A stretch of 62,741 bases of DNA from NCBI RefSeq assembly GCF_002286735.1, contig NZ_NRTA01000024.1, forward strand, positions 1 through 62,741. Reading direction: 5' to 3'. Shown piece by piece: positions 53,853 through 62,548 of the stretch. The translations under genes and the position numbers were made by a program. The notes under the pieces were generated by a model. The model ran no database searches, had not been told where the DNA came from, and saw only the letters and a list, made by a program, of their open reading frames with translations. Positions within the stretch are counted from its first letter, which is position 1; each line of letters begins with the position of its first letter. The DNA comes from Leptolyngbya sp. BC1307 (lineage in GTDB: Bacteria; Cyanobacteriota; Cyanobacteriia; Phormidesmidales; Phormidesmidaceae).

Positions 53853-54356
53853 GTGTTCGAGAATTTATTGCCCCCATTGAACGATCACAATCTGCCCTAT
53901 CCCGACACGATTCATCCGATTGTGGTGCACTTTGTTATCGCTATGGTGCTGTTTGCCGTCATCTGCGATGGGGTTGGCTACTTTACCAAAAATGCTCAAC
54001 TGCATGAGGTGGGCTGGTGGAATATGGTCTTTGCGACCATCTCTATTTTTATCGCGATTCTGTTTGGCCAGGTGGAAGCGGGATTAGCCATGCCTTACGC
54101 GGCAGCGGTGGGCGACCTCAACCTGCATACTTTGCTGGGTTGGTCGCTGTCGGGCATTTTGGCGGCGATCACCGGCTGGCGCTACATCATTCGGCTCAAT
54201 TCACCGGGATCGTTACCCAAGGCTTACATGGGTCTGAACGCGGTGCTGACGCTGCTCGTCGGTTTTCAAGTTTACTTGGGTGACAAGCTGGTGTGGGTGT
54301 ACGGTCTGCACACAGAAGCGGTTGTTGAGGCAGCGCGAGGAGGTCTGCTGAAATGA
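53853..54356 (+). CDS. DUF2231 membrane protein 1 of terminal-oxidase operon
   Basis: A 167-residue protein with four membrane helices (about 27-45, 57-77, 92-110, 125-143). DUF2231 features are the N-terminal DTIHPIVVHFVIAMVLFAV with His pair, GWWNMVFATISIFIAILFGQVEAG, and LNLHTLLGWSLSGILAAITGWRY. Conserved membrane His could bind heme, unproven. GTG 53853 (as VFEN) is the annotated start. Its stop overlaps the next start (ATGA at 54353). Confidence 0.85.
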   Translation: MFENLLPPLNDHNLPYPDTIHPIVVHFVIAMVLFAVICDGVGYFTKNAQLHEVGWWNMVFATISIFIAILFGQVEAGLAMPYAAAVGDLNLHTLLGWSLSGILAAITGWRYIIRLNSPGSLPKAYMGLNAVLTLLVGFQVYLGDKLVWVYGLHTEAVVEAARGGLLK

Positions 54357-55009
54357 TGATGTTTGGCTTAGCAGGCAACAATGGCCTCCCTTACGGTATC
54401 CCGATCCATCCCAATCTGGTGCATCTGACGCTGGGGCTGTTTATTGTGGCGATCGCCTTCGACATCGTCGCCGCCCTTTACCCACTAGAAAAGCCCATTT
54501 TCAAATTTCTGGCAATTCCGGTCACCAGCTCTGGCCTTTACGATGTGGGCTGGTTTAACCTGGTCGCAGCTGCCATCATCACCTTTTTTACAGTCGCGGC
54601 TGGGTTCTACGAAATTTTGCTGGCCGATCCGCCAGATGACATCGTGAGCCCCTGGGGACTCAACGCCACCGACACCATGGTATGGCACGGCCTTGGCGGT
54701 GTTTTGCTGCTGGCGCTGATTGTCAGCATGACGATTTGGCGAGGCTTTCAGCGCTACTCATGGCGCGAAGATCGGGCTAGGCAGGTGCAGTGGAGCTATC
54801 TGGCTGCTGGGCTGTTTATTTTTGGGCTGATGTTTGCCCAGGGGACACTAGGTGCCCATTTGGGCGGTGATTTCGGCGTTCATGTGACCGCCGACCGGCT
54901 GATTCGAGCGGGGATCAATCCTAACGAGCAGGTACCGGGCACGCCACCAGCCGAGGTACTGACCCAGCCACGGGTCGTTGGGCCAAGGGATTTTGGGCCA
55001 AAAGGTTAG
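54353..55009 (+). CDS. DUF2231 membrane protein 2 of terminal-oxidase operon
   Basis: A 218-residue second DUF2231 protein: LPYGIPIHPNLVHLTLGLFIVAIAFDIVAAL, then YDVGWFNLVAAAIITFFTVAAGFYEILLA, TDTMVWHGLGGVLLLALIVSM and a last helix LAAGLFIFGLMFAQGTLGAHLGG. It has His at the ends of helices 1 and 3, as in the first DUF2231 protein. Translationally coupled with gene 1 by the ATGA overlap and followed by ctaC after a 53-base gap. Confidence 0.85.
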   Translation: MMMFGLAGNNGLPYGIPIHPNLVHLTLGLFIVAIAFDIVAALYPLEKPIFKFLAIPVTSSGLYDVGWFNLVAAAIITFFTVAAGFYEILLADPPDDIVSPWGLNATDTMVWHGLGGVLLLALIVSMTIWRGFQRYSWREDRARQVQWSYLAAGLFIFGLMFAQGTLGAHLGGDFGVHVTADRLIRAGINPNEQVPGTPPAEVLTQPRVVGPRDFGPKG

Positions 55010-55016
55010 CCCAGAA

Positions 55017-55041
55017 AATTAGTTTAGAGAATTAGTTTAGA
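55017..55041. repeat. 12-bp direct repeat, period 13
   Basis: AATTAGTTTAGA occurs at 55017-55028 and 55030-55041, in the short spacer between the second DUF2231 gene and ctaC. Confidence 0.85.
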
Positions 55042-55062
55042 AAATGAAACCTAGAGAGTCGA

Positions 55063-56040
55063 GTGAATACTGAGAACGAGAGGACAAGCGATCTAAACCG
55101 GGTACTCAATCGGCGCAGGATTATGGGGCTGGCCGGGTTAGCGACTGCAAACCTAGGCATTAGTTACTGGATGGGCCAGCAAGCCTACAAATGGATGCCG
55201 ACCCAAGCCTCCGCAGAATCGGTGCTAGTCGATAAGCTTTTTAGCTTTATGACCGCCGTTGGCACCTTTATTTTTATCGGGGTGGTCGGGACGCTGTTGT
55301 ATTCCATGGTCTTTCAGCGAGCAGCCAAGTACGACCCTACCGATGGCCCACCGATTGAAGGCAATCTTTGGCTGGAGATCGTCTGGACAGCGGTTCCTAT
55401 TGTGCTGATTATCTGGATTGGGTCGGTTAGCTACAACACCTACGATCAGATGAGCCTATTGAGCCCCTTTGCTCCGAGGGAGATGAAAACGGCGGGCACC
55501 GTGCCTGGAGACAAAAAGGAAAAAGTGCCAGGCGATACCGAACCGACCAAAAACTGGCCGCCGATTGAAGTACATTCACGGCAGTGGTCCTGGGAGTTTC
55601 GCTACCCAGAGGACGACGTTAGCAGCACCGAGCTACATCTGCCGATAAACCAGCGAGCCCGCTTCAAACTGACATCAGAAGACGTATTACACGGCTTTTA
55701 CATCCCCGCGTTTAGGGTGAAGCAAGACATTATTCCCGGCAGGGAAATTGACTTTTCGTTCACACCCATTCGAGCAGGTCGCTACCGCCTGCGGGATTCG
55801 GCCTATAGCGGCACCTACTTCGCCGACAACCAAACCAATGTCGTCGTCGAATCGGAAGAAGACTATGAGCAGTGGCTGTTAGCTGCTGCCCAGATGCCGC
55901 CCGCCGCCGCCGAAAATGTGGCCGATGAAGCCTTTAGCCGCGCTGCTGAAGGCTCGATTAGCTTGGGCTGGGCGACTGTGAAGCCTGCCCCCGCACCCAT
56001 TGTCAACTACAGCAGTTCAGTGAAGGATTCTTATGAGTAA
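55063..56040 (+). CDS. Subunit II of heme-copper oxidase without CuA site (CtaCII/CoxB, ARTO type)
   Basis: A 325-residue subunit II: an N-terminal twin-Arg-like or anchor helix, a second helix (FSFMTAVGTFIFIGVVGTLLY), the third GNLWLEIVWTAVPIVLIIWIG, then the cupredoxin domain with IEVHSRQWSWEFRYPED and FKLTSEDVLHGFYIPAFRVKQDIIPGR. Where CuA subunits have Cys-x3-Cys, it has DSAYSGTYFADNQ (245-257) with no Cys, so CuA is absent. This is typical of the alternative terminal oxidase, thought to take electrons from quinol or another non-cytochrome donor. GTG 55063. Confidence 0.9.
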   Translation: MNTENERTSDLNRVLNRRRIMGLAGLATANLGISYWMGQQAYKWMPTQASAESVLVDKLFSFMTAVGTFIFIGVVGTLLYSMVFQRAAKYDPTDGPPIEGNLWLEIVWTAVPIVLIIWIGSVSYNTYDQMSLLSPFAPREMKTAGTVPGDKKEKVPGDTEPTKNWPPIEVHSRQWSWEFRYPEDDVSSTELHLPINQRARFKLTSEDVLHGFYIPAFRVKQDIIPGREIDFSFTPIRAGRYRLRDSAYSGTYFADNQTNVVVESEEDYEQWLLAAAQMPPAAAENVADEAFSRAAEGSISLGWATVKPAPAPIVNYSSSVKDSYE

Positions 56041-57754
56041 TGCATCTTTGGAGGTGAAGCCGCCTGAGGCGCAGCCGGTTATGCAGCCCGAACCGGGCGC
56101 ACCGGATAACTGGCAGCGGTTTTTCACCTTCAGCACCGACCACAAGGTCATCGGTATTCAGTATATTGTCACGGCCTTTACCTTCTTTTTGTTTGGCGGG
56201 CTGCTGGCGATGGTGATGCGCGGCGAGCTGATTACGCCCGAGGCAGATCTGGTAGATCGCACGGTCTATAACGGGCTCTTCACCATGCACGGCACGATCA
56301 TGCTGTTCATGTGGACCTTCCCGATGCTGAACGGGCTGGCGAACTATCTGGTGCCGCTGATGATTGGGGCGAGGGATATGGCTTTCCCTCGGCTGAACGC
56401 CGCTGCCTTTTGGATGGTGCCTGTGTTCGGCGTTATTCTCATTACCAGCTTTTTTATCCCCGGTGGCCCCTCTCAGTCGGGCTGGTGGGCCTATCCGCCC
56501 GTGAGCTTGCAAAACCCGACCGGCAATTTGATCAACGGTCAGGCGATGTGGCTAGTGGCGGTAGCGCTGTCGGGTGTGTCCTCGATTATGGGCGCGGTGA
56601 ATATTGTCACGACCATTTTTAGAATGCGCGCTCCCGGCATGGGCTGGTTCAAGATGCCCGCCTTTTGCTGGACGGTGCTGTCGGCGCAGATGATTCAGCT
56701 GATTGGCTTGCCTGCTCTGACGGCGGGCGCGGTGATGCTGCTGCTCGATCTCACAGTTGGCACGAGCTTTTTTGACCCGACTCGCGGCGGTGACCCGGTG
56801 CTGTATCAGCACTTCTTTTGGTTCTACTCTCACCCGGCGGTATATGTGATTGTTTTGCCGATCTTCGGCGTGTTTTCAGAAGTGTTTCCGGTGTATGCCC
56901 GCAAGCCACTGTTTGGCTACCGGGTGGTGGTGGTTTCTTCTGTGCTGATCACCGTGCTCAGCCTGATGGTGTGGGTTCACCATATGTTTGCGAGCGGCAC
57001 GCCGGGCTGGATGCGGATGCTGTTTATGTTTACGACGATGGCGATCTCGATTCCGACAGGCATTAAGGTGTTTGCGTGGGTAGCGACGGTGTGGGGCGGT
57101 AAGCTGCGGCTGACTACAGCAATGCTGTTTGCTTTGGGCGGGCTGTCGATGTTCCTATTTTCGGGCATTACCGGCATCATGCTGTCTTCGGCTCCTTTTG
57201 ATATTCACGTGAACAATACCTATTTTGTGGTGGGTCACTTTCACTATGTGATTAACGGCGCGGTGGTAATGGGCTTTTATGCGGCAATTTATCACTGGTT
57301 TCCTAAGATGACGGGGCGTATGTATTACGAGGGCTTGGGCAAGCTGCATTTTGCGCTGACCTTCATTGGCGCAAATCTGATCTTTTTGCCAATGCACCCG
57401 CTGGGTTTGATGGGAATGCCTCGGCGCGTGGCCTCTTACGATCCTGAGTTTGCTTTTTTGAATGTGATAGCGAGTCTGGGCGGCTTTTTGCTGGGCGTTT
57501 CGACGTTGCCTTTTATTTTGAACATGCTGAGTTCCTGGAATCAGGGAAAAGAGGCGGGGGATAATCCTTGGCGAGCGATTGGACTGGAGTGGATGGTGTC
57601 ATCGCCGCCGCCGCATGAAAACTTTGAGGAGATTCCGATAGTGGTGTCGCCGCCGTATGGCTATGGCAGTGATGAACCGCTGGTGTCTAATAATCCTGCG
57701 GGTAAGCCTGTGGGAGAGACGATGGCAAAGCCTCTTAAAGGGAGAATCGCATGA
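56033..57754 (+). CDS. Subunit I of heme-copper oxidase (CtaDII, A2-type)
   Basis: A 573-residue catalytic subunit with twelve helices. Ligand motifs: heme His in FTMHGTIMLFMW, CuB His267 with the cross-linking Tyr in YSHPAVYV, the His pair in VWVHHMFASG, and the two last His in VVGHFHYVING. The YSHPxV motif in place of GHPEV defines the A2 class. It overlaps ctaC by 8 bases and ctaE by 4 (ATGA at 57751). The last codons (MAKPLKGRIA) and the ctaE ribosome-binding site lie in a 32-nt repeat-like segment (57719-57750). Confidence 0.95.
   Translation: MSNASLEVKPPEAQPVMQPEPGAPDNWQRFFTFSTDHKVIGIQYIVTAFTFFLFGGLLAMVMRGELITPEADLVDRTVYNGLFTMHGTIMLFMWTFPMLNGLANYLVPLMIGARDMAFPRLNAAAFWMVPVFGVILITSFFIPGGPSQSGWWAYPPVSLQNPTGNLINGQAMWLVAVALSGVSSIMGAVNIVTTIFRMRAPGMGWFKMPAFCWTVLSAQMIQLIGLPALTAGAVMLLLDLTVGTSFFDPTRGGDPVLYQHFFWFYSHPAVYVIVLPIFGVFSEVFPVYARKPLFGYRVVVVSSVLITVLSLMVWVHHMFASGTPGWMRMLFMFTTMAISIPTGIKVFAWVATVWGGKLRLTTAMLFALGGLSMFLFSGITGIMLSSAPFDIHVNNTYFVVGHFHYVINGAVVMGFYAAIYHWFPKMTGRMYYEGLGKLHFALTFIGANLIFLPMHPLGLMGMPRRVASYDPEFAFLNVIASLGGFLLGVSTLPFILNMLSSWNQGKEAGDNPWRAIGLEWMVSSPPPHENFEEIPIVVSPPYGYGSDEPLVSNNPAGKPVGETMAKPLKGRIA
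57719..57750 (+). repeat. Diverged 32-nt HIP1-associated insert, candidate copy 4 (ctaD/ctaE junction)
   Basis: It starts ACGATGGCAAAGCC and ends GGGAGAATCGC. It matches copies 2 and 3 at 25 of 32 positions with equal length. It encodes the last ctaD residues and contains the AAGGGAG ribosome-binding site of ctaE. The match is good but this copy is diverged and could be chance. Confidence 0.55.
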
Positions 57755-58365
57755 GCAGCATCAACGTAGATCCTTCACTCGACGGCAAAGTCGCTCATCT
57801 AGAGCACGCCCATTTAGAATCCGAAGAAGACCATCGCATGTTTGGCTTCGTGGTCTTTCTACTGTCTGAAAGCATTATCTTCTTTAGCTTTTTTGTCGGC
57901 TACATCGTCTTTAAAACCGGTGCCGCAGATTGGCTTCCTGCCGGGTTTGAAGGATTAGAGGTAAAAGAGCCGCTAATCAATACGATAGTGCTAGTTTCGA
58001 GCAGCTTTGTAATCTACTTTGCCGAGCGCTTTTTGCACCGTGACAATCTGTGGGGCTTTCGGATCTTTTGGCTGCTGACGATGGCGATGGGCAGCTTTTT
58101 TCTCTACGGCCAGGCGGTGGAGTGGATGGGCCTGCCCTTTGGCTTTACCGATGGGGTGTTTGGCGGGACGTTTTACCTGCTGACGGGCTTTCATGGGCTG
58201 CATGTCTTTACCGGGGTGCTGTTGCAGGGCATTATGCTGGCTCGTTCGTTTATCCCGAACAACTACGCGGGCGGCGAGTATGGCGTTGCGGCGACTTCGA
58301 TCTTCTGGCACTTTGTCGATGTAATCTGGATTATCTTGTTTCTCTTGATTTACGTGTGGCAGTAG
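57751..58365 (+). CDS. Subunit III of heme-copper oxidase (CtaEII)
   Basis: A 204-residue subunit III with five membrane helices. Typical parts are MFGFVVFLLSESIIFFSFFVGY, PLINTIVLVSSSFVIYFAER, FTGVLLQGIMLA and SIFWHFVDVIWIILFLLIYVW. Together with the two previous genes it makes the core oxidase. It starts within the stop of ctaD (ATGA) and ends three bases before the GMC gene. Confidence 0.93.
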   Translation: MSSINVDPSLDGKVAHLEHAHLESEEDHRMFGFVVFLLSESIIFFSFFVGYIVFKTGAADWLPAGFEGLEVKEPLINTIVLVSSSFVIYFAERFLHRDNLWGFRIFWLLTMAMGSFFLYGQAVEWMGLPFGFTDGVFGGTFYLLTGFHGLHVFTGVLLQGIMLARSFIPNNYAGGEYGVAATSIFWHFVDVIWIILFLLIYVWQ

Positions 58366-58368
58366 CTC

Positions 58369-59895
58369 ATGATTTTTGACGACCAACACTACGACGTGAT
58401 CATTGTCGGTACGGGGGCGGGCGGCGGTACGCTGGCGCAAAAGTTGGCCCCGACTGGCAAGCGGATTTTGATCTTAGAGCGCGGGTCTCAGATGGCGCTT
58501 GGGGAACAGAACCGGGCGGATGTTGATGTGTTCAAAAAAGAGCGCTACCACGCCCCAGATCAGTGGTACGACGAGACAGGTGAGCCGTTTTCACCGCAGA
58601 CGAACTATGCCATCGGTGGTAATACAAAGGTATACAATGCTTCGCTGATGCGGATGCGCGATCGCGACTTTGAAGCGGTTACCTACCAGGACGGTGTCAC
58701 CCCCGAATGGCCCCTGAAATATGCCGATTGGGATCCTTATTACACAGCGGCAGAGCAGCTATACCAGGTGCATGGCGATGCCAAAGCTGACCCAACCGAG
58801 CCGACTCACAGCGCTGACTATCCCTTCCCCGCAGTCGGTCACGCGCCCGTGATGCAGCCGATTGTAGAGGCAATTCAAGGCAAAGGGCTCAGCGCTGCCC
58901 CGCTGCCAATGAGCCTGACTAAGCGAGAGGATGATCCGACTGGGGACGCGGAGGTCTTTGGGATTGATCGGGCGATCGCCCACCAAAACGTCACCCTCAA
59001 AGCCAACGCCCAAGTAGTCGCCCTGCACACCAATCCCACCGGCACCGAGATCAAAGGCGTACAGGCCGAGGTCGATGAGCAGCCGATGCTATTCACTGCC
59101 GATATTGTGGTGCTGGCCTGTGGCGCGGTCAACTCTGCTGCCCTGATGCTAATTTCTGCTAACGACCAGCATCCGCACGGACTAGCTAACAGCTCAGACC
59201 AGCTAGGCCGCAACTTAATGAAGCATCTGATGACGGTGATTGTAGAGCGGGGGGCAGCCAAAAACGACGGCAAATTTGCTCGCAGCGTCAGCATCAACGA
59301 CTATTACTGGGGCGATGAGTACTACGATTTCCCCATGGGCCATATTGAAAACAGCGGCGGACTGCTGCAAGACATTATCTTTGCAGAATCGCCACCCCTG
59401 CTCTCAGTTCTGGCCCGCCTTCTTCCTGGCTTTGGTCTAAAAAAGCTGGCAACCGGCTCCATCGGCTGGTGGGCTCAAACCGGCGTGTTGCCCAAGGCCG
59501 AAAACCGCATCTATCTCAAGCAAAGCCGAAAGAAGAAAAAGCTACGCTACGAATTTACCCCCAACAATCTTGAAGCCCATGACCGCCTGGTGTATCGCTG
59601 GATGGGAGTGCTCAAAGAGCTAGAGGGCTCAGCGCTCGGTATGAGGCAGAGCACCGTTTACCCCCGAGGAGAGTCGCCCATCGAGGTAGTCGGCTACCAG
59701 TGCGGCACCTGTCGCATGGGACACGATCCAGCGACATCTGTTTTAGATATCAACTGCCGCACCCACGAAATCGACAATCTCTATGTAGTAGACAGCAGCT
59801 TTTTTCCCTCCTGCGCCAGCGTCGGCCCAGCCCTGACAGTGATAGCCAATGCGCTGCGGGTAGGGGAGCACCTGATAGAGCGGCTAAAAGCTTAG
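58369..59895 (+). CDS. GMC-family FAD oxidoreductase linked to the oxidase
   Basis: A 508-residue GMC (glucose-methanol-choline) flavoprotein. The FAD motif is DVIIVGTGAGGGTLAQKL (about 8-25) with ERG at the end of strand 2; later blocks are GGNTKVYNASL, VLACGAVNSAALML, the Cys/Met motif CGTCRMGHDP, and the C-terminal VDSSFFPSCASVGPALTVIANALR. There is no signal peptide, so it is probably cytosolic or membrane-peripheral. It starts 3 bases after ctaE and is the last gene tightly coupled to the oxidase. It is inferred to feed electrons from an alcohol or sugar to the quinone pool or directly to this oxidase. Confidence 0.92.
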   Translation: MIFDDQHYDVIIVGTGAGGGTLAQKLAPTGKRILILERGSQMALGEQNRADVDVFKKERYHAPDQWYDETGEPFSPQTNYAIGGNTKVYNASLMRMRDRDFEAVTYQDGVTPEWPLKYADWDPYYTAAEQLYQVHGDAKADPTEPTHSADYPFPAVGHAPVMQPIVEAIQGKGLSAAPLPMSLTKREDDPTGDAEVFGIDRAIAHQNVTLKANAQVVALHTNPTGTEIKGVQAEVDEQPMLFTADIVVLACGAVNSAALMLISANDQHPHGLANSSDQLGRNLMKHLMTVIVERGAAKNDGKFARSVSINDYYWGDEYYDFPMGHIENSGGLLQDIIFAESPPLLSVLARLLPGFGLKKLATGSIGWWAQTGVLPKAENRIYLKQSRKKKKLRYEFTPNNLEAHDRLVYRWMGVLKELEGSALGMRQSTVYPRGESPIEVVGYQCGTCRMGHDPATSVLDINCRTHEIDNLYVVDSSFFPSCASVGPALTVIANALRVGEHLIERLKA

Positions 59896-59927
59896 TAGGC
59901 TTTCATCTCTAGCGGTTGAACACACCT

Positions 59928-60701
59928 ATGAAACGCCGTCAGTTCACGTTCTTCCTGGTAGGGCTACTCTCTACACTGTTGATCTTCGCTTGTAGTATCC
60001 GTGAACAGCCGGTGACTATTACGGTATCGGCAGCGGCGAGCTTGCAAGATGGTTTAGAAGCGATCGCTCCTCAATTCAGCACCGCCTATCCTAAAATCGC
60101 CGTAGACTACAACTTTGGCGCTTCCGGTGCGCTTCAGCGACAAATTGAACAAGGTGCCCCGGTCGATGTCTTTTTCTCTGCGGCGACTAAACAGATGGAC
60201 GCGCTGGCCGACAAAGCGCTAATCCTACCTAGCTCTCGTCAAAACCTGCTCACCAACAGATTAGTACTGATTGCGCCCACCGCCTCTAACCTCAACATCA
60301 CCAATCTTTCTCAGCTTAAAGACACCGACATCAGCCGCTTCGCTGTTGGAGAATTTCGCAGCGTCCCCGCCGGACAATACGCCGAACAAGTCTTTCAAAA
60401 GCTGGATTTCTTAGACGCCCTACAGTCCAAATTCGTCTTTGGCAACAATGTGCGCAGCGTGCTCTCTGCCGTCGAAAGCGGCAACGCTGACCTGGGCATG
60501 GTATACGCTACTGATGCGGCACTTTCTGAACGGGTCAAGGTAATCTTGACGGTGCCCGCCGACGCTCACTCGCCTATCACCTACCCCATCGCAGTCGTAC
60601 AGAATTCGCCCAGTCCTGAAGCCGCTCAAACCTTTATTAATTTTCTCACCACAGAACCCGCTCAGGCAATCTTTCAAGCATTCGGATTTGGTCAAAGCTA
60701 G
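59928..60701 (+). CDS. modA: ModA, molybdate-binding lipoprotein
   Basis: A 257-residue molybdate-binding protein for ABC import. Lipoprotein signal: FFLVGLLSTLLIFACS (lipobox Cys about 22). Mature part: VTITVSAAASLQDGLEAIA, NFGASGALQRQIEQGAPVDVFFSA, and AVESGNADLGMVYATDAAL, all typical of ModA. ATG 59928 is preferred to TTG 59916. It starts 32 bases after the GMC gene and ends 20 bases before modBC, so these may be read from the same transcript. Confidence 0.95.
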   Translation: MKRRQFTFFLVGLLSTLLIFACSIREQPVTITVSAAASLQDGLEAIAPQFSTAYPKIAVDYNFGASGALQRQIEQGAPVDVFFSAATKQMDALADKALILPSSRQNLLTNRLVLIAPTASNLNITNLSQLKDTDISRFAVGEFRSVPAGQYAEQVFQKLDFLDALQSKFVFGNNVRSVLSAVESGNADLGMVYATDAALSERVKVILTVPADAHSPITYPIAVVQNSPSPEAAQTFINFLTTEPAQAIFQAFGFGQS

Positions 60702-60721
60702 TACCCATTCCTCACTTCCCT

Positions 60722-62548
60722 ATGCTCACCCTCTCACCGCTCTGGATATCTCTGCGGATTGCCGCGATCGCCACCCTGATCACCTGCTTTCTCGGTATCG
60801 CCGCCGCCCACTTCATGCAGCGCTACCGGGGTCGGGGGCGATCGCTCCTCGACAGCCTCTTTCTCGCCCCCTTAGTCATTCCCCCAACCGTACTGGGTTT
60901 TTTGCTGCTGCTCCTGCTCGGTAAAAATGGCCCATTGGGTTCGCTACTCTCCCATCTCGGCCTCAATATTGTTTTCACCTGGTATGCCGCAGTCCTAACG
61001 GCAACCGTTGTCGCCTTTCCGCTCATGTACAAAACAACCCTGGGCGCATTCGAGCAAATCGACAGCAACCTGCAACAGGCCGCCAGAACCCTGGGCGCTT
61101 CAGAACTCACCGTCTTTTGGCGAATCACTCTCCCTCTGACTCTACCCAGTCTTTTAGCCGGAACAACCCTGTCCTTTGCCCGCGCCCTCGGTGAATTTGG
61201 AGCCACCCTGATGCTCGCAGGCAACATCCCGGGCCGCACCCAAACGCTACCGATGGCCATCTACTTCGCCGTCGAAGGTGGCGACTTTCGCGAAGCTGCC
61301 CTCTGGTCATCAGCCACCCTCATTCTCTCTTTAGGCGCAATCATCCTCGTCAACCAATTCGCCACCCGCAAAACCCTTCTAAAAACACCTCCCCATTCCC
61401 CATTCCCCATTCCCCATCCCCCCCCGCACACGGCGGCTGAGCGTAGCCGAAGTCCCACTCCCCCCTGCCTCCAAGTCAACATCTGCAAACAACTCCCCGG
61501 CTTCACCCTCGCTGTCAACTTCACCACCGACGACCAGCACCCTCTCGGACTTCTCGGCGCATCCGGAGCCGGTAAAAGCCTGATTCTGCGCTGCATCGCT
61601 GGCATCGAAACGCCCGATGCGGGTCGAATTGTACTGAATGGCCGGGTACTGTTTGACTCTGGGCAAGGAATCGATCTGCCAAGCTGCGATCGCAAAGTCG
61701 GCATTCTCTTCCAAAACTACGCCCTTTTTCCCCACCTCACGGTCGCTCAAAACGTCGCCTTTGGTCTTCATAGCCATCCACTTCCCCCCTCCAAAATGGA
61801 AGCCGCCGTCAGCCAACAGCTCACCGCTGTTCACCTCAGCCCATTAGCTCAGCGATATCCTCACGAACTGTCAGGCGGGCAACAGCAGCGCGTAGCCCTC
61901 GCCCGGTCACTAGCCAACCAACCCGAAGTTTTACTCCTCGATGAACCCTTCTCAGCGCTGGATACCCACCTGCGTAGCCAAGTTGAACAGCAGCTCAAAC
62001 TTCGACTTCAGAGCTATTCTGGTATTACCCTCTTAGTCACTCACAATTTAGAAGAAGCCTACCGAATTTGCCGTTCCCTCCTTATCCTCGAAAGTGGCCA
62101 TGTAGCGGCCCATGCCCCCAAACACCGTATATTTGAGCAGCCTAAAACCGTGAGTATTGCCAGGCTCACAGGCTGCAAAAACTGCTCTACAGCGATCGCC
62201 CGTGGCCCCCACCAAATAGAGGCGCTAGACTGGCAATGCACGCTTACCACCGTCGAACCGCTTCCTACAAATCTCACCCATATTGGCATCCGCGCTCACC
62301 AAATAACCTTCCTCACTGCCTCAGCAGATGCGCCAAAGCCCAATACCTTTCCCTGTTGGCTAGCCGCTACGAGCGAAACGCCCCACCGCATGACTTTGTT
62401 CTTAAAGCTCAATGCTCCCGCTGACAGCGATCGCGATTATCACCTCCAGGCAGAGATCTTTAAGGAAAAATGGGCCACTATTAAAGACCAGGCTTTCCCC
62501 TGGCAAGTCGTTTTAGATCCGCTGCGGTTGATTTTGTTAAGCGATTGA
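60722..62548 (+). CDS. modBC: ModBC, fused molybdate permease and ATPase
   Basis: A 608-residue fusion. Residues 1-215 are the ModB permease (six helices; QAARTLGASELTVFWRI EAA loop, GEFGATLML). Residues about 215-250 are a low-complexity Pro/His/Ser linker. Residues about 250-480 are the ModC ATPase: Walker A GASGAGKS, Q-loop FQNYALFPHLT, signature LSGGQQQR, Walker B LLLDEPFSALD, H-loop VTHN. The last 110 residues are a TOBE-like domain. ModBC fusions are known in cyanobacteria. The linker is encoded by a heptamer repeat and a short dispersed sequence (61391-61450), so it may have formed by repeat insertion. Confidence 0.95.
   Translation: MLTLSPLWISLRIAAIATLITCFLGIAAAHFMQRYRGRGRSLLDSLFLAPLVIPPTVLGFLLLLLLGKNGPLGSLLSHLGLNIVFTWYAAVLTATVVAFPLMYKTTLGAFEQIDSNLQQAARTLGASELTVFWRITLPLTLPSLLAGTTLSFARALGEFGATLMLAGNIPGRTQTLPMAIYFAVEGGDFREAALWSSATLILSLGAIILVNQFATRKTLLKTPPHSPFPIPHPPPHTAAERSRSPTPPCLQVNICKQLPGFTLAVNFTTDDQHPLGLLGASGAGKSLILRCIAGIETPDAGRIVLNGRVLFDSGQGIDLPSCDRKVGILFQNYALFPHLTVAQNVAFGLHSHPLPPSKMEAAVSQQLTAVHLSPLAQRYPHELSGGQQQRVALARSLANQPEVLLLDEPFSALDTHLRSQVEQQLKLRLQSYSGITLLVTHNLEEAYRICRSLLILESGHVAAHAPKHRIFEQPKTVSIARLTGCKNCSTAIARGPHQIEALDWQCTLTTVEPLPTNLTHIGIRAHQITFLTASADAPKPNTFPCWLAATSETPHRMTLFLKLNAPADSDRDYHLQAEIFKEKWATIKDQAFPWQVVLDPLRLILLSD
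61391..61418 (+). repeat. Heptameric tandem repeat (CCCCATT) in the modBC linker
   Basis: Three perfect CCCCATT units and one CCCCATC encode Pro/His/Ser codons between the permease and ATPase halves. A GGCTGAGCGTAGCCGAAG motif follows at about 61435, of a type seen dispersed in cyanobacterial genomes. Confidence 0.9.

Follow-up and report, generated by a model that had tools for sequence, protein, structure and literature searches.

A CuA-less terminal oxidase, a pair of DUF2231 membrane proteins and a GMC-family flavoprotein without its catalytic pair form a conserved gene module in cyanobacteria

A run of six genes in Leptolyngbya sp. BC1307 bears on the electron uptake and the partner proteins of the alternative respiratory terminal oxidase (ARTO) in cyanobacterial respiration. 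The window analysed here is a stretch of 62,741 nt (NZ_NRTA01000024.1, assembly GCF_002286735.1), and the run occupies positions 53853-59895. Open reading frames and Pfam matches place on one strand, in this order, two DUF2231 membrane proteins (DUFa and DUFb), a subunit II lacking the CuA copper site (C2), subunit I (D2), subunit III (E2), and a GMC-family flavoprotein. A first-pass annotation, made from the sequence alone, had described a run of six closely spaced genes, and the open reading frames agree with it: the five junctions are a 4-base overlap, a 53-base gap, an 8-base overlap, a 4-base overlap, and a 3-base gap, respectively. The six-gene run is a real, conserved module. The explanation tentatively favoured here, with a probability put slightly below even, is that ARTO is a quinol oxidase, that the DUF2231 pair is its core partner, and that GMC is an optional cytosolic flavin module acting by a non-canonical route. 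Two partner sets of ARTO can now be tested.

The oxidase encoded in the run is the type-1 ARTO (Qox) of cyanobacteria, which belongs to the A-type heme-copper oxidases and lacks CuA. Comparison with the Thermus caa3 oxidase showed that, in the CuA loop of subunit II, the two Cys are replaced by Asp245 and Ser249, the second His by Phe253, and the Met by Asn256. Asp245, Ser249, and Phe253 are invariant in 53/53 aligned subunit II sequences, all of which also keep the first CuA His (H210); at position 256, 28 sequences have Asn and 25 have Met. The same Asp, Ser, and Phe occur at these positions in 11/11 further loci, including the lower-scoring ARTO copies L135, L139, and L144. As judged from these residues, the CuA site is absent from subunit II, which bears out the earlier description of a CuA-less oxidase. 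The loop is similar to that of the quinol oxidase aa3-600, which likewise has a subunit II without CuA and whose structure (6kob) is the second-best PDB match of C2. The CuA-less subunit II is a feature of both the aa3-600 and the bo3 quinol oxidases; the operons of neither are known to contain a DUF2231 pair or a GMC gene. In subunit I, the heme and CuB ligands His86, His260, His316, His317, His402, and His404 are each kept at 90% or more. The motif YSHPAVY, the A2 pattern, is present in 55 of 56 sequences (one is gapped), where the best PDB matches carry HPEVY. Cytochrome c oxidases give subunit I a higher score than the aa3-600 or bo3 quinol oxidases do. PMC6616624 describes ARTO as a quinol oxidase of the bo3 type that receives its electrons from plastoquinol.

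The linkage of the module was surveyed in 194 genomes evenly drawn from the phylum (requested completeness of 90% or more, window genome included). A clean score gap (781 vs 731 bits) separated ARTO subunit I from CtaDI; 57 genes of the ARTO kind were counted, in 48 genomes. DUFb was found directly upstream of 51 of these 57 genes on the same strand; one of the six copies without it (G235) lies at a contig end. In G069, subunit I is elsewhere in the genome and the DUF2231 pair stays with subunit II. The DUF2231 pair is thus a near-constant partner of ARTO. A full-length GMC gene lies just downstream of 19 of the 57 ARTO copies. The survey of co-occurrence had been proposed with the first-pass annotation, and it found the GMC gene conserved beside ARTO in other genomes: 19 of the 20 full-length GMC matches stand behind subunit I, at 0.6-1.4 kb and on the same strand, and the sole unlinked match (G168) is 91% identical to the paralogue L099. 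All 19 GMC genomes are among the 48 ARTO genomes (hypergeometric 1.2e-13, kinship ignored).

A second sample consisted of 80 named GTDB loci, the best 80 of at least 408 confirmed. Among these best 80, GMC lies no more than 1.5 kb behind subunit III in 55, and all six genes occur in order in 45; many of the remaining loci are paralogues or contig ends. The six-gene linkage extends over Leptolyngbya-like cyanobacteria, Moorena, Xenococcaceae, some heterocystous genera, Cyanobium, and Synechococcus. Among the relatives, subunit III is near GMC in 28 of 30 GMC loci, one of which is the window. Some genomes carry genes inserted between E2 and GMC, and their identity varies from case to case; the link between E2 and GMC has therefore been kept despite insertions. 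Where a GMC of the ARTO-associated clade (described below) was not seen beside ARTO, ARTO was found elsewhere in 6/6 genomes queried, in G014 at 17.7 kb from GMC on the same strand. GMC might merely happen to follow ARTO, as it does so in only 19 of 57 copies and as the genes of a molybdate transporter follow just as closely in the window. Such a chance neighbourhood is nevertheless very improbable, given the position of nearly every full-length GMC match behind ARTO, the link surviving differing insertions, and the nesting of all GMC genomes within the ARTO genomes.

The first-pass annotation had described two His-bearing DUF2231 membrane proteins, and both match Pfam above its cut-off (Table 1). 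Each has four invariant His (DUFa 50/50, DUFb 50/50), and the pattern also holds in 32/32 and 27/27 sequences of alignments that include pairs linked to another type of oxidase, described below. In DUFa, helix 1 begins with two of these His, a third is near the beginning of helix 3, and the fourth comes after helix 4. The DUFa model (mean predicted local distance difference test score, pLDDT, 86.7) has helices at 20-45, 48-79, 83-116, and 123-149, and a short one at 155-166. Charge averages, for which the DUFb loop limits were set by eye, are net positive for loops 1-2 and 3-4, and net negative for the termini and loop 2-3. This bias places all four His, by prediction, on the periplasmic or lumenal side, where CuA would be. 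Most likely, the pair would form a b-heme or metal site, or a site that handles quinol, on that side of the membrane; such a site, at the former place of CuA, might help electrons from plastoquinol to reach the low-spin heme. Should DUF2231 turn out to be a redox subunit, a function would be gained for a Pfam family that has hardly been studied. A second type of DUF2231, collected with the third copy of the window genome, keeps His21 and His92 in 23/23 sequences, whereas His26 is present in 1 and His153 in none; the pair was represented by 13 sequences in that alignment. Neither an ARTO nor a GMC gene was found near the second type in 23 loci of 2-4 kb each, with a wider stretch for the copy of the window genome. 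In three loci (L130, L133, and L134), a DUF2231 pair lies beside partial or interrupted matches to ARTO subunit I; these are perhaps decaying ARTO loci.

The DUF2231 pair also occurs in a second type of oxidase operon, together with a CcoN-like COX1 protein and a TIGR03169-like flavoprotein of the pyridine-nucleotide type (L131 and L132). L131 additionally contains a CcoO/FixO-like subunit. The matches of the cbb3-like oxidase and the flavoprotein in both loci are all below the curated NCBIfam cut-offs. The pair is thus common to ARTO and cbb3-like oxidase operons. Proteins that travel with two oxidase classes, and that could deliver copper or heme from a His cluster, might instead be assembly or cofactor-insertion factors of heme-copper oxidases, with GMC as their redox regulator. 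This alternative is considered unlikely, since CtaDI needs similar cofactors and no DUFb match was found within 5 kb of the CtaDI-type genes listed. A more elaborate form of the favoured explanation would make ARTO a flavo-quinol oxidase complex. The DUF2231 proteins would form a heterodimer with a cofactor on the periplasmic or lumenal side that replaces CuA, and a GMC-derived protein without the usual pair, docked on the cytosolic side, would serve without catalysis as a relay of electrons at FAD (flavin adenine dinucleotide) or as a redox switch in about one third of ARTO loci. The loss of its catalytic residues would date from recruitment, and the same slot would be filled by the pyridine-nucleotide flavoprotein in the cbb3-like operon. 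In this complete form the proposal is rather improbable.

The best PDB profile matches of the window GMC are the large subunits of FAD glucose dehydrogenase (6a2u) and of membrane-bound fructose dehydrogenase (7w2j/8jej). Enzymes of both kinds feed electrons to quinone or cytochrome chains. Residue mapping showed that His1147 of fructose dehydrogenase corresponds to position 443 of the window GMC, and the Asn that entry 8xcn has as Ala to position 486. Unlike those dehydrogenases, the window GMC has both catalytic residues replaced (Tyr443 at the His position and Gly486 at the Asn/His position), lacks the cluster Cys, and has no small or cytochrome subunit encoded in the run. The GMC profile has no Cys opposite the Cys-rich stretch of 6a2u, which binds a 3Fe-4S cluster. 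Among NCBIfam models the best match is TIGR03970 (MftG, the GMC-family mycofactocin dehydrogenase), at 79.2 bits and thus far below its cut-off of 387.45. MftG connects a redox cofactor with the respiratory chain.

A phylogenetic tree of GMC was reconstructed from 105 rows by a quick search with the catalytic columns included. The rows represent 101 different sequences, since some loci are included twice (L107/L119, L088/L129, and L113/L126 give identical rows); L123, a 52-residue fragment from a frame with a stop, was dropped from the initial 106, and GMC pieces no longer than 1 kb, such as L115, were excluded. The ARTO-type GMC sequences form one clade of 68 rows, with an SH-aLRT (approximate likelihood ratio test) support of 100, and in 57 of them the gene follows subunit III at no more than 1.4 kb. 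The remaining 11 rows are L041, L050, L052, L056, L059, L064, L068, L070, L106, L117, and L118. In L041, L056, L059, L068, and L117, upstream DNA of 7 kb or more contains no ARTO; most of the remaining loci reach an end nearby; in L106, a subunit I gene stands immediately upstream, and subunit III gave no match. The complete catalytic His-Asn pair is found in 0/68 clade members vs 37/37 paralogues; a single change on the tree accounts for its loss. In 47 of the 68, the window included, neither residue is left. The combinations at 443/486 are His/Ser (19), Asn/Ser (16), Tyr/Gly (11), Tyr/Ser (6), Gly/Gly (4), Asn/Gly (3), Asn/Thr (2), and Leu/Gly (2), with single cases of Ser/Ser, Asn/Asn, Ser/Gly, His/Gly, and Gln/Gly. 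Only columns 305, 443, and 486 are conserved at 95% or more in the paralogues yet kept in less than 30% of the clade. By comparison, 69 columns, including the FAD motif, are conserved at 95% or more in both groups, and Gly14, Gly16, Gly19, and Glu37 of the FAD site are conserved. The first-pass annotation had called the protein a flavoprotein that oxidises alcohols or sugars; with these residues, the standard GMC hydride-transfer chemistry is unlikely in the window protein, and that claim is not upheld. In a separate observation on the window genome, the GMC paralogue at L115 on contig C1 is represented by its C-terminal part alone, with another short GMC match elsewhere on that contig, and the gene looks interrupted.

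The ratio of nonsynonymous to synonymous substitution rates (dN/dS) of GMC is 0.055-0.060 in three comparisons (dS is near saturation in two), and that of subunit I is 0.058. In two close pairs the GMC ratio is 0.17-0.18, and an intact second GMC gives 0.105 in one pair. These ratios indicate that GMC is under purifying selection, and a pseudogene was rejected on the whole range of 0.055-0.18. With the catalytic pair lost and the FAD site kept under purifying selection, GMC probably moves or senses electrons in another way. No leader is seen ahead of the FAD motif, which begins at residue 14, so that the protein is predicted to be cytosolic. The clade is nested among dehydrogenase-type GMC enzymes, and the catalytic pair was probably lost in step with the move to ARTO. 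Most likely, GMC would pass or sense electrons, either to plastoquinone or with a partner dehydrogenase, and would not carry out the usual alcohol oxidation.

A new catalytic chemistry that uses other residues, as in the fatty acid photodecarboxylase of the same superfamily, might also account for the kept FAD motif, the 69 conserved columns, and the purifying selection. Photodecarboxylases are among the PDB matches of GMC, and His404 is present in 68/68 clade members vs 5/37 paralogues. However, the photodecarboxylase match is limited to a short C-terminal stretch, and residue 443 varies among N, H, Y, G, L, S, and Q, which would be odd for a new active site. The key residues of the photodecarboxylase are Cys432 and Arg451. 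This alternative is given a low probability.

Several observations weigh against the favoured explanation of an optional electron-handling GMC and a DUF2231 core partner. No GMC was found adjoining 38 of the 57 ARTO copies; since nearly all full-length GMC genes stand behind ARTO, GMC is faithful to ARTO, ARTO does not need GMC, and GMC is not an obligatory ARTO donor. His443 is kept in 20/68 clade members (19 with Ser486, one with Gly486) and Asn486 in 1/68, and some of these members could be weakly active, as far as their residues indicate. The structure prediction of GMC has low confidence (mean pLDDT 39.1). For DUF2231, a His stands three columns ahead of position 153 in most rows of the second type, and the helix-4 His of that type may be shifted rather than absent in the alignment. 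In fold searches, DUFa matched unremarkable four-helix bundles, heme proteins among them. Foldseek gave a best E of 0.03 and no match at 0.001 or below, with b561 at E 0.88. The best VIA-align Z was 14.8 (a designed bundle), near the value of 14 that is typical of helical models without a clear match. The de novo di-heme bundle 4D2 matched at an ordinary level (Z 11.3), and the DUFa profile found no match among PDB sequences up to E 1. The DUF2231 proteins may still carry heme, as the first-pass annotation had suggested.

The gene context of GMC also weighs on that side. In nine Cyanobium/Synechococcus-type loci, a MGH1/GH63-like glycoside hydrolase (PF22422 and PF03200 in the one scanned) directly follows the operon GMC; a tenth locus, L090, has a partial match at a contig end. 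Eight of the nine also have a second GMC, its catalytic pair intact, at about 4.2-4.6 kb behind subunit III. Similar hydrolases are found near intact GMC paralogues elsewhere (for example L087, L088, L107, L113, L120, L121, and L125); in L144, one stands next to an ARTO that has no GMC. In L139, an intact GMC paralogue is near a short-chain dehydrogenase/reductase resembling glucose-1-dehydrogenase, a debranching-type hydrolase, a SMP-30-type lactonase, and a CuA-less ARTO-like oxidase. These neighbours suggest that sugars are the probable substrates of the intact paralogues; the operon GMC may act together with a sugar-oxidising enzyme of this kind. The operon GMC might itself be active as a dehydrogenase of sugars or alcohols, reducing plastoquinone for oxidation by ARTO. 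Its nearest solved relatives, the hydrolase loci with their intact second GMC, the surroundings of the L139 paralogue, and the kept His443 would all fit such an enzyme. It is unlikely, however, because Asn486 is lost in 67/68 clade members, because both residues are gone in most of the clade and in the window itself, and because counterparts of the cluster Cys and a gene for a small or cytochrome subunit are missing. The complete chain from substrate to oxygen that had first been proposed for this run is thus retained in part: the functional coupling of the DUF2231 pair, the CuA-less oxidase, and GMC stands, while the oxidation of an alcohol or sugar by GMC is doubtful.

The part of the module made of two genes plus ARTO is already known in outline. 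In Anabaena PCC 7120, the operon alr2729-alr2730-coxB3-coxA3-coxC3 has, like the window, two genes followed by a CuA-less subunit II, subunit I, and subunit III, and the account of it states that whether further subunits exist is unclear (PMC6616624). Unlike the window, the operon as described there has no GMC named; the comparison with the window is one of gene order. The genes alr2729 and alr2730 are listed as hypothetical proteins in PMC4390870. A literature search, with most subscription journals outside its coverage, found no report of a GMC link to ARTO in cyanobacteria; it also found no published account of the loss of the GMC catalytic pair at ARTO and no publication on DUF2231 in cyanobacteria, a family that a single one of the 5.39 million papers covered mentions by name. 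The GMC link, the GMC catalytic loss, and the DUF2231 His pattern therefore seem to be new.

Table 1. Features of the module and of related loci. Positions without a locus number refer to the window; L, G, and C numbers are loci, genomes, and contigs. Pfam cut-offs: DUF2231 (PF09990) 26.4, GMC_oxred_N 23, GMC_oxred_C 24.6 bits.
Feature	Position	Strand	Details
DUFa, DUF2231 membrane protein, 167 aa, GTG start	53853..54356	+	Pfam 129.6 bits; His21, His26, His92, His153
DUFb, second DUF2231 membrane protein, 218 aa	54353..55009	+	Pfam 123.7 bits; His19, His24, His112, His177
C2, CuA-less oxidase subunit II (ctaCII/qoxB type)	55063..56040	+	Pfam COX2 and COX2_TM
D2, oxidase subunit I (ctaDII)	56033..57754	+	Pfam COX1 526.8 bits; YSHPAVY motif
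E2, oxidase subunit III (ctaEII)	57751..58365	+	Pfam COX3 105.7 bits
GMC-family flavoprotein, 508 aa	58369..59895	+	Pfam GMC_oxred_N 26.3, GMC_oxred_C 69.3 bits; Tyr443, Gly486
ModA and fused ModB-ModC molybdate transporter	59916-62548		Start 20 bases 3' of the GMC gene
CcoN-like COX1, DUF2231 pair, and TIGR03169-like flavoprotein	L131:1008-6132 (G154)		
CcoN-like COX1, DUF2231 pair, and TIGR03169-like flavoprotein	L132:5581-10657 (G045)		
ARTO run, hydrolase, and intact second GMC	L081:10001-15466		Also L083, L085, L086, L089, L092, L104, L108
Third DUF2231 gene of the window genome	L114:6463-7101, contig C23		Without the second helix-1 His and His153; no oxidase gene seen adjoining
C-terminal GMC paralogue piece of the window genome	L115:4278-5093, contig C1		

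The genes for ModA and a fused ModB-ModC follow the run closely in the window. Among 109 further loci, many of which are short, a match to ModA (E 1e-15 or better) was found in L041 alone, on the opposite strand, and the transporter was rejected as a component of the module. A PHROGs search gave nothing useful. Neither the scan for promoters, with 4 found vs a shuffled mean of 4.3 and so no more than chance, nor that for terminators, with 13 found on both strands together vs a shuffled mean of 7.4, was informative.

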